In this document: piece after piece, positions 2,878-8,766 of the stretch
How positions within the stretch are numbered: position 1 is the stretch's first letter
Layout: each line of letters begins with the position of its first letter
Source of the DNA: Lapillicoccus jejuensis
GTDB lineage: Bacteria > Actinomycetota > Actinomycetes > Actinomycetales > Dermatophilaceae
Direction of reading: 5' to 3'
Length of the DNA: 64,000 nt
NCBI RefSeq assembly: GCF_006715055.1
Contig: NZ_VFMN01000001.1
Location: 3,410,001 to 3,474,000 of the forward strand
Translations under genes and position numbers: made by a program
Notes under the pieces: generated by a model
Databases searched by the model: none
What the model was told of the DNA's origin: nothing
The model's input: the letters and a program-made list of their open reading frames with translations, nothing else

Positions 2878-4338
2878 ATGCGTCGCGCGAAGATCGTCTG
2901 CACCCTCGGCCCCGCCACCTCCTCACCCGAGCAGGTCCGCCGCCTCGTCGACGCGGGCATGGACGTCGCGCGGCTCAACCTGTCGCACGGCGAGTACGCC
3001 GTCCACGAGGAGATCTACCGCTCGATCCGGGCCGCGGGCGACGCGACCGGACGCGCGGTCGGCGTGCTCGTCGACCTGCAGGGCCCGAAGATCCGGACCG
3101 GGCGCTTCCCCGACGGGCCCATCACCCTCGTCAGCGGCGACCGCTTCACGATCACCACGCTCGACGTGCCGGGCGACCAGACCCGGGTCAGCACGACGTA
3201 CAAGGGCATGCCGGGTGACGTCCGGCCCGGCGACAGCCTGCTCGTCGACGACGGCAAGGTGCACCTGCGGGCCCTCGAGGTCACGGCGACCGACATCCTC
3301 ACCGAGGTCGTCGAGGGCGGCGTCGTCTCCAACAACAAGGGGATCAACCTGCCCGGCGTCGCGGTGAGCGTGCCCGCGCTGTCGGAGAAGGACAAGGCCG
3401 ACCTGCGCTGGGCGCTGCACCTGCGCGCCGACATGATCGCGCTGTCCTTCGTGCGGTCGGCCGCCGACCTCGAGGACGTCCACGCGATCATGGACGAGGA
3501 GGGCGTGCGGCTGCCCGTCATCGCCAAGGTCGAGAAGCCGCAGGCCGTCGACAACCTCGCCGAGATCGTCGACGCCTTCGACGGGGTCATGGTCGCCCGC
3601 GGCGACCTAGGCGTGGAGATGCCGCTCGAGGACGTGCCGATCGTGCAGAAGCGCGCGGTCGAGCTGGCCCGGCAGTACGCCAAGCCGGTCATCGTCGCCA
3701 CGCAGGTGCTCGAGTCGATGATCGAGAACTCGCGGCCGACCCGCGCGGAGGCCAGCGACTGCGCCAACGCCGTGCTCGACGGCGCCGACGCGATCATGCT
3801 GTCCGGCGAGACGAGCGTCGGCGCCTGGCCGATCCAGGCGGTCCGCACGATGGCCCGGATCATCGAGAGCACCGAGGACCACGGCCTGGACCGGATCGTG
3901 CCGCTCGGCACCCGGCCGCACACCAAGGGTGGCGCCGTCACCTGGGCCGCGGTCGAGATCGGGATGCTGCTCGGCGTCAAGTACCTCGTGACGTTCACGC
4001 AGTCGGGCGACTCGGCGCAGCGGCTCAGCCGGATCCGGCCGCAGCTGCCGATGCTCGCCTTCACCCCGCTGCAGGACACCCGCTCGAAGCTGGCCCTCGT
4101 CTGGGGCGTGGAGACCTTCCTCGTGCCGATGGCCCGGCACACCGACCAGATGGCGCTCGAGGTCGACAACTCGCTGCTCGCCTCCGGTCGGGCGGTCGAG
4201 GGCGACCTCGTCATCATCGTCGCCGGCTCGCCGCCCGGGATCCCCGGCTCGACCAACGCGCTGCGGGTGCACCGGATCGGCGACGCGATCAACCGGGTCG
4301 CGCCGGCGTACGAGGACTTCGCGGCGCCCCAGGCCTGA
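2878..4338 (+). CDS. pyk: Pyruvate kinase
   Basis: This 486-residue enzyme converts phosphoenolpyruvate and ADP to pyruvate and ATP in the cytoplasm. The barrel opens with KIVCTLGPA and carries the substrate/Mg segment RLNLSHG, the catalytic lysine region IAKVEKPQAV and the signature MVARGDLGVEMP. A C-terminal allosteric domain completes a normal-length protein. It is monocistronic between the gltBD terminator and the tRNA gene. The ATG is supported by the -10 box 6 bases upstream. Glycolytic partners gap-pgk-tpiA lie 42 kb away in the same window. Confidence 0.97.
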   Translation: MRRAKIVCTLGPATSSPEQVRRLVDAGMDVARLNLSHGEYAVHEEIYRSIRAAGDATGRAVGVLVDLQGPKIRTGRFPDGPITLVSGDRFTITTLDVPGDQTRVSTTYKGMPGDVRPGDSLLVDDGKVHLRALEVTATDILTEVVEGGVVSNNKGINLPGVAVSVPALSEKDKADLRWALHLRADMIALSFVRSAADLEDVHAIMDEEGVRLPVIAKVEKPQAVDNLAEIVDAFDGVMVARGDLGVEMPLEDVPIVQKRAVELARQYAKPVIVATQVLESMIENSRPTRAEASDCANAVLDGADAIMLSGETSVGAWPIQAVRTMARIIESTEDHGLDRIVPLGTRPHTKGGAVTWAAVEIGMLLGVKYLVTFTQSGDSAQRLSRIRPQLPMLAFTPLQDTRSKLALVWGVETFLVPMARHTDQMALEVDNSLLASGRAVEGDLVIIVAGSPPGIPGSTNALRVHRIGDAINRVAPAYEDFAAPQA

Positions 4339-4368: not shown

Positions 4369-4380
4369 TACCCTCGGCTC
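4369..4380 (+). promoter_or_regulatory. Likely tRNA promoter (-10 TACCCT)
   Basis: TACCCT at 4369-4374 would start transcription near 4381, seven bases before the mature 5' end of the tRNA at 4388. It lies 30 bases beyond the pyk stop. Confidence 0.5.
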
Positions 4381-4387
4381 GGCGCCG

Positions 4388-4461
4388 GCCCCGGTATCCC
4401 AACCGGCAGAGGAAGCGGTCTCAAACACCGTCCAGTGTGGGTTCGAATCCCACCCGGGGCA
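4388..4461 (+). tRNA. tRNA with CAA anticodon (predicted Leu) but class I fold
   Basis: This 74-nt cloverleaf has a perfect 7-bp acceptor stem (4388-4394 with 4454-4460), a weak 3-bp D stem and a 5-bp anticodon stem whose loop is 4420-4426 with anticodon CAA at 4422-4424. A 5-bp T stem carries the loop TTCGAAT. The discriminator is A4461 and CCA is not encoded. CAA reads the leucine codon UUG, yet the variable region is only 5 nt (4432-4436) instead of the long arm normal for bacterial tRNA-Leu. Leucine identity is therefore an inference from the anticodon alone. The place between pyk and pdtaR matches, from memory, that of a Leu tRNA gene in mycobacteria. Confidence 0.9.
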
Positions 4462-4547
4462 CGTCCGGCGGCCCGCAGGCCGTCCCCGAGGGCGTCCACG
4501 AGGCGCTCACAGGGCGACCGCGTCGCGCCGCGGTCGCGGGGCCCCGA

Positions 4548-4560: not shown

Positions 4561-5199
4561 ATGACGACCACGCCCGACGCGACCGACGAGCAGCCCCAGG
4601 CCCCCGCCACCGAGCAGGAGCCGCAGCGGCTGCGCATCGTCGTGGCCGAGGACGAGGCGCTCATCCGCCTCGACCTCGCGGAGATGCTCGGCGAGCTGGG
4701 GTACGACGTCGTCGGCCAGGCCGGCGACGGCGAGCAGGCCGTCGAGCTGGCCCGCGAGCACACCCCCGACCTCGTGATCATGGACGTGAAGATGCCGGTG
4801 CTCGACGGCATCAGCGCCGCCGAGGTCATCGGCAAGGAGCACATCGCCCCGGTCGTCATGCTCACCGCCTTCAGCCAGAAGGAGCTCGTCGAGCGGGCCC
4901 GCGACGCCGGCGTCATGGCCTACATCGTCAAGCCGTTCACCCAGGCCGACCTCGGCCCGGCCATCGACATCGCCCGGTCGCGGTGGACCGAGCTGACCGC
5001 GCTCGAGGCCGAGGTCGCCGACCTCGGGGAGCGGCTGGAGACCCGCAAGGCGGTCGACCGGGCCAAGGGCATCCTCATGACCCAGCTCAAGCTCAGCGAG
5101 GCCGACGCCTTCCGCTGGATCCAGAAGACGGCGATGGACCGCCGCCTGGGCATGCGCGAGGTCGCCGACACCGTCATCAAGGGCCTGGCCAAGAAGTAG
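4561..5199 (+). CDS. pdtaR: ANTAR-domain response regulator, PdtaR type
   Basis: This 212-residue protein has a receiver domain (about 25-145) and a C-terminal ANTAR RNA-binding domain (about 150-205). The acidic pair E30/D31, the phosphoacceptor D75 (IMDVKMP), T102 and K124 are all present. Known family members work downstream of a PdtaS sensor kinase as phosphorylation-controlled transcription antiterminators that bind paired RNA hairpins. No kinase gene is in the window, so the partner must be encoded elsewhere. About 24 variable residues precede the receiver fold. The stop is TAG, rare here. Confidence 0.9.
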   Translation: MTTTPDATDEQPQAPATEQEPQRLRIVVAEDEALIRLDLAEMLGELGYDVVGQAGDGEQAVELAREHTPDLVIMDVKMPVLDGISAAEVIGKEHIAPVVMLTAFSQKELVERARDAGVMAYIVKPFTQADLGPAIDIARSRWTELTALEAEVADLGERLETRKAVDRAKGILMTQLKLSEADAFRWIQKTAMDRRLGMREVADTVIKGLAKK

Positions 5200-6063: not shown

Positions 6064-8766
6064 GTGGCTCGACTGCTCCTGCTGGATGGACACTCGCTGG
6101 CGTACCGCGCGTTCTACGCGCTGCCGGCGGAGAACTTCGCGACGAAGACGGGGCAGACGACCAACGCGGTCTTCGGCTTCACGTCGATGCTCATCAACAT
6201 GCTGCGCGACGAGGAGCCGACGCACGTGGCGGTCGCCTTCGACCGGTCGCGGCAGACGTTCCGGCTGGAGGAGTACGCGGAGTACAAGGCCGGTCGCGCG
6301 CAGACGCCGTCGGAGTTCTCCGGGCAGATCCCGCTCATGCGCGAGGTCCTCGACGCCCTGCGGATCCGGCACGTCGAGGCCGACGGGTTCGAGGCCGACG
6401 ACATCATCGCCACGCTGACGACGGCGGGGGAGGCGCAGGGCCTCGAGGTCCTCATCTGCTCCGGCGACCGCGACGCGTTCCAGCTGGTGAGCGACAAGGT
6501 GACGCTGCTCTACCCGGTGCGCGGGGTGTCCGAGGTGTGGCGGATGACGCCGGCCGCGGTGACCGAGCGGTACGGCGTGCCCCCGGAGCGCTACAGCGAC
6601 CTGGCCGCGCTGGTCGGGGAGTCCTCGGACAACCTGCCGGGGGTGCCGGGGGTGGGGCCGAAGACGGCGGCCAAGTGGATCACCCAGTACGGCGACCTGC
6701 CGGGCCTGGTCGCGCACGTCGACGAGGTCAAGGGCAAGGCGGGTCAGTCGCTGCGCGACCACCTCGACGCGGTGCTGCGCAACCGGCGGCTCAACCAGCT
6801 GGTGCGCGACGTGCCGCTGGGCATCGAGGTCGACGAGCTGGAGCGGCAGGCGTGGGACCGCGAGCAGGTCCACCAGGTCTTCGACGGCCTGGAGTTCCGG
6901 GTCCTGCGCGAGCGGCTGTTCGCGACGCTGGAGTCGGCGGTGCCGGAGGCGGAGTCCGGGTTCGACGTCCTCGGCGAGGTCCTCGAGGCCGGTGACGTGC
7001 CGGGCTGGCTGACGGAGCACGCGAAGCCGGGGGAGCGGGCCGGGGTCTCGGTCGTGGGCCGGTGGGCGCGCGGCACGGGGGACGTGGCGGCGCTGGCGCT
7101 GGCCACGGCGGACGGGCACGCGGCCTACGTCGACGTGACCCGGCTCGACGAGCCGGGGGAGCAGGCGGTCGCGGCGTGGCTGGCCGACCCGGACCGGCCC
7201 AAGGCGCTGCACGACGCGAAGGGACCGCTGCAGGCGCTGACCGCGCGCGGGTGGACGCTGGGCGGCCTGACGAGCGACACGGCGCTGGCGGCCTACCTCG
7301 TGCGCCCCGACCAGCGCTCCTACGACCTGGAGGACCTCGCGCTGCGGATGCTCAAGCGCGAGCTGCGCAACGACACCGAGGTCGCCGGCGACACCGTCCA
7401 GGGCACCCTCGACTTCGACGGCGAGGAGGACGGCGAGCAGGCGCAGGCCCGCGCGTCGATGGTCGTGGCGCGGGCGGTGCTCGAGCTGGCCGACGCGCTC
7501 GACGGCGAGCTGGCGACGCGGGCGGCGGCGGGGCTGCTGCGCGACGTCGAGCTGCCGCTGGTGCACGTGCTGGCGCGGATGGAGCGGGCGGGGATCGCGG
7601 TCGACGTGCCGGCGCTGGAGGCGCTGGACGCCGACTTCGCCCAGCAGGTGTCCCGGGCGCAGCAGGCCGCGTGGGACGCGATCGGTGACGACACGGTCAA
7701 CCTCGGCTCGCCCAAGCAGCTGCAGGAGGTGCTCTTCGAGCGGCTGTCGCTGCCGAAGACCAAGCGGACCAAGACGGGGTACACGACCGACGCGGACGCG
7801 CTGGGCGAGCTGGGCCGCAAGGTCGACCACCCGTTCCTCATGGGGGTGCTGGCCTTCCGCGACGCGTCGCGGCTCAAGGTCACCGTCGAGGGGCTGCTGA
7901 AGTCCGTGGCCGAGGACGAGCGGGTGCACACGACGTACCTGCAGACCATCGCGGCGACCGGCCGGCTCAGCTCGACCGACCCCAACCTGCAGAACGTGCC
8001 GATCCGCACGGAGGAGGGGCGCCGGATCCGCGGGATGTTCGTCGTCGGTCGCGGGCCGGGGGAGCCGTTCGAGTCGCTGATGTCGGTCGACTACAGCCAG
8101 ATCGAGATGCGGGTCATGGCCCACCTGTCGAAGGACGCGGGGCTCATCGAGGCGTTCCGCACCGGGGAGGACCTGCACAGCTTCGTCGGGGCGCGGGTCT
8201 TCGGCGTCGGGATCGACGAGGTCACCCTCGCCCAGCGCTCCAAGGTCAAGGCGATGTCGTACGGCCTCGCCTACGGGCTGTCGGCGTACGGGCTGTCGAA
8301 GCAGCTGACGATCTCGACCGGCGAGGCCAAGGAGCTGATGGACGAGTACTTCCAGCGGTTCGGCGGGGTGCGGGACTACCTGCGCGAGCTCGTCGTCGAG
8401 GCCCGCGCGACGGGCTACACCGCGACGATGCTCGGCCGGCGCCGCTACCTGCCCGACCTCACCTCGGACAACCGGCAGCGCCGCGAGATGGCCGAGCGGA
8501 TGGCGCTCAACGCCCCGATCCAGGGCTCCGCGGCGGACATCATGAAGGTGGCCATGCTCGGGGTCGAGCGCCGGCTGCAGGAGTCCGGCGCCCGCTCGCG
8601 GATGCTGCTCCAGGTCCACGACGAGCTCGTCCTCGAGATCGCCCCGGGCGAGCGCGAGGACGTCGAGGCGCTCGTGCGCCACGAGATGGGCCACGCCGTC
8701 GAGATGGACGTCCCCCTCGACGTCAGCGTCGGGGTCGGCCGCTCCTGGCACGACGCCGCCCACTGA
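6064..8766 (+). CDS. polA: DNA polymerase I
   Basis: This 900-residue enzyme fills gaps after nucleotide excision repair and replaces Okazaki primers. The N-terminal 5' nuclease (about 1-300) has LLLDGHSLAYRAFYALP and the acidic cluster FEADDIIATL, then helix-hairpin-helix VPGVGPKTAAKW. The middle domain keeps the exonuclease fold position but lacks the metal-binding D-x-E signature, so proofreading is probably absent, as in other actinobacterial Pol I. Polymerase motif A contains D676 (VDYSQIEMR), motif B is RSKVKAMSYGLAYG, and motif C is VHDE with H852/D853. The GTG start follows a leaderless -10 box. Confidence 0.97.
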   Translation: MARLLLLDGHSLAYRAFYALPAENFATKTGQTTNAVFGFTSMLINMLRDEEPTHVAVAFDRSRQTFRLEEYAEYKAGRAQTPSEFSGQIPLMREVLDALRIRHVEADGFEADDIIATLTTAGEAQGLEVLICSGDRDAFQLVSDKVTLLYPVRGVSEVWRMTPAAVTERYGVPPERYSDLAALVGESSDNLPGVPGVGPKTAAKWITQYGDLPGLVAHVDEVKGKAGQSLRDHLDAVLRNRRLNQLVRDVPLGIEVDELERQAWDREQVHQVFDGLEFRVLRERLFATLESAVPEAESGFDVLGEVLEAGDVPGWLTEHAKPGERAGVSVVGRWARGTGDVAALALATADGHAAYVDVTRLDEPGEQAVAAWLADPDRPKALHDAKGPLQALTARGWTLGGLTSDTALAAYLVRPDQRSYDLEDLALRMLKRELRNDTEVAGDTVQGTLDFDGEEDGEQAQARASMVVARAVLELADALDGELATRAAAGLLRDVELPLVHVLARMERAGIAVDVPALEALDADFAQQVSRAQQAAWDAIGDDTVNLGSPKQLQEVLFERLSLPKTKRTKTGYTTDADALGELGRKVDHPFLMGVLAFRDASRLKVTVEGLLKSVAEDERVHTTYLQTIAATGRLSSTDPNLQNVPIRTEEGRRIRGMFVVGRGPGEPFESLMSVDYSQIEMRVMAHLSKDAGLIEAFRTGEDLHSFVGARVFGVGIDEVTLAQRSKVKAMSYGLAYGLSAYGLSKQLTISTGEAKELMDEYFQRFGGVRDYLRELVVEARATGYTATMLGRRRYLPDLTSDNRQRREMAERMALNAPIQGSAADIMKVAMLGVERRLQESGARSRMLLQVHDELVLEIAPGEREDVEALVRHEMGHAVEMDVPLDVSVGVGRSWHDAAH

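Follow-up and report, generated by a model that had tools for sequence, protein, structure and literature searches.

The tRNA gene at positions 4388-4461 of the window (the whole 64,000-nucleotide stretch of DNA analysed, G000:C1:3410001-3474000) is the sole tRNA-Leu(CAA) of Lapillicoccus jejuensis, built on a class I body; it is very probably charged with leucine by a single LeuRS and decodes UUG, and the class I gene probably displaced a class II one. The genome (G000) is a complete, single-contig, 4.58-Mb actinobacterial genome. The features on which this reading rests are collected in the table.

A leucine tRNA with a short variable region

ARAGORN called a tRNA-Leu(caa) at 4388-4462, and the covariance-model scan proposed in the first-pass annotation returned a full-model match to Rfam RF00005 at 4388-4461 (53.0 bits against a gathering score of 29; E 1.5e-8). 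That annotation had described a CAA tRNA with a 5-nt variable region and no long variable arm, and both programs, together with direct reading of the sequence, bear it out. Also upheld by direct reading are the perfect acceptor stem (GCCCCGG/CCGGGGC, 7 bp) and the perfect T arm (stem GTGGG/CCCAC, 5 bp; T loop TTCGAAT). The anticodon stem is GCGGT/ACCGT, A37 lies 3' of the anticodon and A73 is position 4461. The D stem indeed has three base pairs (U10-A25, C11-G24 and C12-G23, with C13.A22 open), yet this is not odd in itself, because the class II leucine tRNAs of the same genome likewise have three pairs, with G13.A22.

What sets the molecule apart from bacterial class II tRNA-Leu is the missing long arm, with CCAGT in place of the 13-17 nt arm of the genome's class II leucine tRNAs, and a core with A9, C12-G23 and C13 where class II has G9, G12-C23 and G13. 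It shares with the class II kind a leucine anticodon, A73, A14, the A15:U48 trans-Levitt pair, G18G19 and A20a but not the long variable arm (at least 10 nt), and since its variable region has only 5 nt it is filed as class I. It has every feature of the class I tRNA-Leu(UUR) kind of Actinomycetota and phages: the short variable region, A9, C12-G23, C13.A22, A15:U48, A20a and A73. The acceptor branch is split 7/5, which rules out an allo-tRNA, whose 12-bp branch is split 8/4 or 9/3.

Features of the window around the tRNA-Leu(CAA) gene
Feature	Position	Strand	Basis
pyk, pyruvate kinase, conserved upstream neighbour of tRNA-Leu(CAA)	2878..4338	+	gene-order comparison
TANNNT -10-like element TACCCT, 13 nt upstream of the tRNA, tentative	4369..4374	+	by eye
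Class I (short variable region) tRNA-Leu(CAA), mature part without CCA	4388..4461	+	ARAGORN, Rfam RF00005, conserved in relatives
Anticodon CAA (C34A35A36), reads UUG	4422..4424	+	sequence, ARAGORN
Variable region CCAGT (44-48), 5 nt, U48 pairs with A15	4432..4436	+	sequence, Rfam match, tRNA comparison
pdtaR-like response regulator with receiver domain, conserved beside tRNA-Leu(CAA) throughout the phylum	4561..5199	+	gene-order comparison
polA, DNA polymerase I, in conserved pyk - tRNA-Leu(CAA) - pdtaR - polA order	6064..8766	+	gene-order comparison

In a congener whose neighbouring proteins are 83-87% identical, the tRNA gene itself is 100% identical. The -10-like element is echoed, by eye, in relatives; a sigma-70 consensus scan gave no match. 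The MFE fold of the lone transcript differs from the cloverleaf, which says little about a GC-rich tRNA folded as unmodified.

An Rfam scan found 45 tRNAs in the genome, five of them tRNA-Leu. All three CUN leucine tRNAs (UAG, CAG and GAG) are long-armed, with variable regions of 13-17 nt, and those with CAA and UAA have 5 nt. The sole tRNA-Leu(UAA) (G000:C1:2467352-2467425, L037) is class I, with a D arm as in tRNA-Leu(CAA). The class II UUR leucine tRNA pattern had no match in G000, so that UUA and UUG are read there only by short-armed tRNAs. Within the genome, the closest relative of tRNA-Leu(CAA) is the other class I tRNA-Leu (75%), followed by tRNA-Lys (71%), and Met, Pro and Ala tRNAs are absent from its best eight matches. 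The first-pass annotation had named two facts that would mark an ordinary leucine tRNA. One, that this be the only CAA tRNA, stands, with no second CAA tRNA in G000; the other, normal charging with leucine, is what the identity signals described below would predict.

Leucine signals, LeuRS and the meaning of UUG

In Escherichia coli, leucine identity resides in A73, A14, A15:U48, G18G19 and A20a, the long arm is dispensable, and a minimal tRNA-Leu deprived of both the long arm and the anticodon arm is still active (reviewed in PMC9976931). This reported set is carried by both short-armed tRNAs, CAA and UAA. When the tRNAs of G000 were scored for A14, A15:U48, the D-loop triplet Y20-A20a-G21 and A73, the combination was present in exactly the five tRNA-Leu and in none of the others parsed; the two tRNAs outside the parse, Ala-GGC and Thr-GGT, fail the set because both have G15. 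Across cells and phages, A73 and U48, which played no part in the search pattern, each occur in 269 of 270 distinct class I UUR tRNAs. The same signals recur in a set of tRNA-Leu(CAA) genes (25 class I and 43 class II) that were gathered by way of the adjacent pdtaR and are therefore unbiased by tRNA sequence: A14, A20a, A22, U48 and A73 are common to all 68 genes of both classes, A15 is found in 67 and G21 in 66. At positions 9, 12, 13 and 23, by contrast, A9, C12-G23 and C13 in class I stand against G9, G12-C23 and G13 in class II, with at most one exception per group. The long arm is thus exchanged for a core of class I type, and the leucine signals are retained.

The LeuRS of G000 is of the bacterial type (TIGR00396, 857 bits against a cut-off of 548), and further TIGR00396 matches are weak and under the curated cut-off; with this sole match above it, a dedicated second LeuRS is rejected. 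Each of 22 genomes whose class at the locus is known likewise has one LeuRS match, no alignment column of LeuRS separates class I from class II genomes among these 22, and congeners that differ in tRNA class have LeuRS proteins 78-84% identical, all of which argues that short-armed tRNA-Leu would need no special LeuRS. LeuRS type is independent of tRNA class, a short type being common to the class I genome G049 and the class II genome G050. In some members of the order (G040, G050, G049 and G055; L546-L549) this shorter LeuRS, about 50% identical, takes the place of the common long actinobacterial one.

In the sampled genes of G000, TTG accounts for 21 of 30,201 conserved codons (0.07%) and TTA is absent. 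The majority residue in relatives is leucine at 13 of the 21 TTG sites, with few comparisons from other genera; against other genera only, 3 of 12 aligned pairs are leucine, and the rarity of UUG makes this own-genome test weak. A stronger version of the codon test used the mycobacteria-like genomes G197 and G147, both of which have class I CAA beside pdtaR, class I UAA and no class II UUR match; they are probably mycobacteria, because named Mycobacterium contigs contain tRNA-Leu(UAA) sequences that match those filed under their genus code exactly or almost exactly. With TTG masked ahead of the alignment and with CTG and CTC as the partner codons in the window genome, the masked positions align to leucine in 60.6% of cases (n=142), compared with 61.6% for CTG and 56.2% for CTC; masked TTA positions were few (n=17) and noisy. 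By these alignments, UUG acts as a codon for leucine in mycobacteria-like genomes that have class I only. It makes up 0.6% of codons in mycobacteria-like genomes in which class I CAA is the only CAA tRNA found. The tRNA-Leu(UAA) could read UUG too, by wobble, so that tRNA-Leu(CAA) may not be essential in G000. As a side observation in the window and in L460-L461, rare TTG could serve as a rare-codon switch, comparable to bldA/TTA in Streptomyces.

Charging by another synthetase and a role outside translation, both raised in the first-pass annotation, gained no support. A class I body under a leucine anticodon is also how a chimeric tRNA would look, that is, the body of another isoacceptor with a changed anticodon and a foreign identity; human Leu-CAA-5-1 closely resembles a tRNA-Met whose anticodon has changed (PMC8450103), and Streptomyces has tRNA-ProX (PMC11415595). 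We nevertheless regard a chimera as very improbable, given that the tRNA has A15:U48, A20a and G21 and not the G15:C48 of tRNA-Met and tRNA-Pro, that its best relative within G000 is the other class I tRNA-Leu, that UUG aligns with leucine in class I-only genomes and that, with a single CAA and a single UAA tRNA, a chimera would leave UUR without any leucine tRNA. The 15:48 pair and the D loop rule out a mutated tRNA-Met, tRNA-Pro or tRNA-Ala. Less probable still is a tRNA that serves outside translation, such as a regulatory decoy or a donor of aminoacyl groups to a peptide or lipid: the near absence of UUG from G000 speaks for such a role, but the gene is the sole CAA tRNA and occupies a site where relatives keep an ordinary class II tRNA-Leu(CAA), its T loop, A37 and anticodon are intact, and the class I kind is the only CAA tRNA found in the mycobacteria-like genomes that do use UUG. 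Nothing except the odd class speaks for a pseudogene or annotation artefact, which the full identity in a congener, the intact stems, the sole-copy status and the completeness of the single-contig genome render negligible. The option left from the first-pass annotation, tolerance by LeuRS, is strongly favoured: the tRNA is very probably a normal LeuRS substrate that inserts leucine at UUG in L. jejuensis, because the leucine set is present, there is one LeuRS and UUG reads as leucine in class I-only genomes.

As a normal substrate, the tRNA would be recognized by LeuRS through A73 and the tertiary core, namely A14, the A15:U48 trans-Levitt pair, G18G19 and A20a in an enlarged D loop, none of which should need the long arm. 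A normal 5-nt variable region would replace that arm, with the core re-packed through A9, C12-G23 and C13 for G9, G12-C23 and G13, and the very rare UUG would be decoded by tRNA-Leu(CAA) together with the equally short-armed tRNA-Leu(UAA).

Class switching at the pdtaR locus and across the phylum

Gene order at the locus is gltB-gltD-pyk-tRNA-pdtaR-(GNAT)-polA, where the gltB, gltD, GNAT and polA names come from reading of the translations and the pdtaR-like product is presumably an ANTAR protein, a name that we assign from synteny and family knowledge. We located pdtaR in 54 genomes (G000 included), then in 28 more distant genomes, and read the adjoining tRNA where present. The linkage pyk - tRNA-Leu(CAA) - pdtaR is ancient. 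A tRNA is present at 74 loci, 31 of them class I and 43 class II, and the PdtaR tree requires about 15 class changes, 8 of them forced by well supported branches; the class has switched in both directions. Switches occur within genera: G000 and G002 (class I) against G001 (class II), G057 against G039, G347, G158 and G079 against G216, and G308 against G302. The class II tRNA-Leu(CAA) of the congener G001 shares with the class I gene its anticodon, A73, A14, A15:U48, G18G19, A20a, G21 and A22, as well as the locus and the gene order. At the pdtaR locus of G036, a tRNA-Leu(CAA) with the class I-like A9 and C12-G23 has a long arm nonetheless (L179), and may be an intermediate or a gene-conversion chimera. 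The class I tRNA-Leu(CAA) genes at this locus in the Streptomyces-like G158 and G079 (L486 and L488) have an enlarged D loop, GGTTAGAG, and are missed by the strict search pattern.

Class II tRNA-Leu(CAA) at the locus would have been displaced by a class I gene, as many times in the phylum. Replacement is favoured over deletion of the arm in place because congeneric tRNA-Leu(CAA) genes of different class match at just 43-61% of the non-class-defining columns, compared with 82-95% among class I CAA genes of different species, often of different families. Loss of the arm separately in every class II gene, which concerns only the origin of the short-armed form, could draw on the G036 gene as a possible intermediate; the column agreements, and the fact that it is the same four core columns that change every time, make it unlikely, if less remote than the rivals weighed above. 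Displacement by an incoming class I gene therefore remains our preferred account of the origin, and its likeliest vehicle would be tRNA-Leu genes on phages, inserted at host tRNA genes or taking their place.

Such a route has a parallel in tRNA-dependent lysogeny, in which a phage inserts itself into a tRNA gene essential to the host, leaves that gene unrestored and provides a tRNA of its own (PMC10865867). In the part of that paper used here, attB-11 of Mycobacterium smegmatis is a tRNA-Leu-CAA gene, which cluster J phages restore via a 44-bp core, whereas phage Gaia leaves it disrupted and encodes its own tRNA-Leu-CAA; in that same part tRNA class goes unremarked, and the tRNA requirement was tested directly for tRNA-Lys phages, not for Gaia. 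We read the class of the host gene from the attP of Thibault (Omegavirus), a relative of Omega: lying beside a tyrosine integrase (L551:1499-1545), it equals the 3' half of a tRNA-Leu(CAA) of class I, the variable region being 5 nt long, and for that reason the attB-11 gene of M. smegmatis is probably class I. The tRNA-Leu(CAA) of Gaia (L550:39120-39203) is class II, with a long arm and 84 nt in all. With a long-armed phage tRNA and a class I host gene, the Gaia lysogen, which is viable, appears to be a natural class swap in which a class II phage tRNA stands in for a class I host tRNA. No integrase was seen near the tRNA-Leu(CAA) locus in 11 related genomes of G000's family, and we accordingly only infer phage displacement in the G000 lineage. 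Tentatively, the tRNA-Leu(CAA) beside pdtaR might be a recurrent exchange site, where integrating phages with their own tRNA-Leu(CAA) (Gaia-like) repeatedly replace the host gene by one of the other class, so that the isoacceptor flips between classes I and II while LeuRS stays unchanged.

The first-pass annotation had mentioned remodelled leucine tRNAs in actinobacteria, which points in the right direction; the type is widespread in the phylum. At least 79 of 296 genomes of the phylum sample match the strict class I UUR pattern, a lower bound given that slightly deviating CAA genes of mycobacteria and Streptomyces-like genomes are not caught by it. CAA and UAA switch class separately: most genomes of G000's family combine class I UAA with class II CAA, the combination is inverted in family f45, and in G000 both are class I. 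Where class II matches were listed, a genome with one anticodon in class I nearly always has the other in class II only, the exception being G114. Named carriers among the matches listed are Nocardia, Mycobacterium, Gordonia, Rhodococcus, Corynebacterium, Microbacterium, Nocardioides, Bifidobacterium, Salinispora and one Streptomyces; the matches listed also include a few non-actinobacterial contigs, some of them tRNA arrays. Class I tRNA-Leu(UUR) also occurs in large tRNA arrays of Asanoa, cyanobacteria and a Chloroflexaceae MAG (L220, L233, L267 and L284). Among phage contigs (IMG/VR) the class I body is widespread, and phages that infect Erwinia, Salmonella and Pseudomonas are among its carriers. 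Nor is the short body confined to UUR, since class I leucine tRNAs with GAG and UAG are found in Mycobacterium phage Bonray (L555) and Lactobacillus phage ATCC 8014-B2 (L554), respectively.

Relation to known leucine tRNAs and significance

Among the closest counterparts are the class I tRNA-Leu(UUR) of mycobacteria and other actinobacteria, which have the same body, with CAA at the same locus, and differ in sequence details only. Short-armed phage tRNA-Leu also share the body but have more varied acceptor stems and anticodons and are phage-borne, in contrast to the chromosomal gene studied here. The tRNA-Leu(TAG) of Mycobacterium mucogenicum/phocaicum is alike in its leucine anticodon, short variable loop and actinobacterial host, but is an extra isoacceptor beside a normal long-loop one and lies in a tRNA gene cluster (PMC6582537). 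Human mitochondrial tRNA-Leu(UUR) also lacks the long arm and takes its identity from A73 and A14 (PMC9976931); it differs in being organellar, in having an anticodon branch that is partly unfolded and in being served by a separate mitochondrial LeuRS. PMC11541572, in the part used for this comparison, mentions neither class nor anticodons. Our search of the open literature, with subscription papers outside its scope, found no description of class I tRNA-Leu(UUR) as a general actinobacterial feature; the gene thus represents a widespread structural variant of a known tRNA, apparently undescribed as such in the literature searched.

These findings contrast with a review according to which the arm is absent only in animal mitochondria. 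Short-armed tRNA-Leu(UUR) are the only decoders of UUA and UUG in G000, and apparently likewise in mycobacteria, and so provide a natural experiment on the requirements of LeuRS. They bear on the isotype calling of tRNA genes, on the engineering of small leucine tRNAs and on the swapping of essential host tRNA genes by phages. The necessity of the long arm in leucine tRNAs, a long-standing question, becomes testable with natural pairs of sister species.
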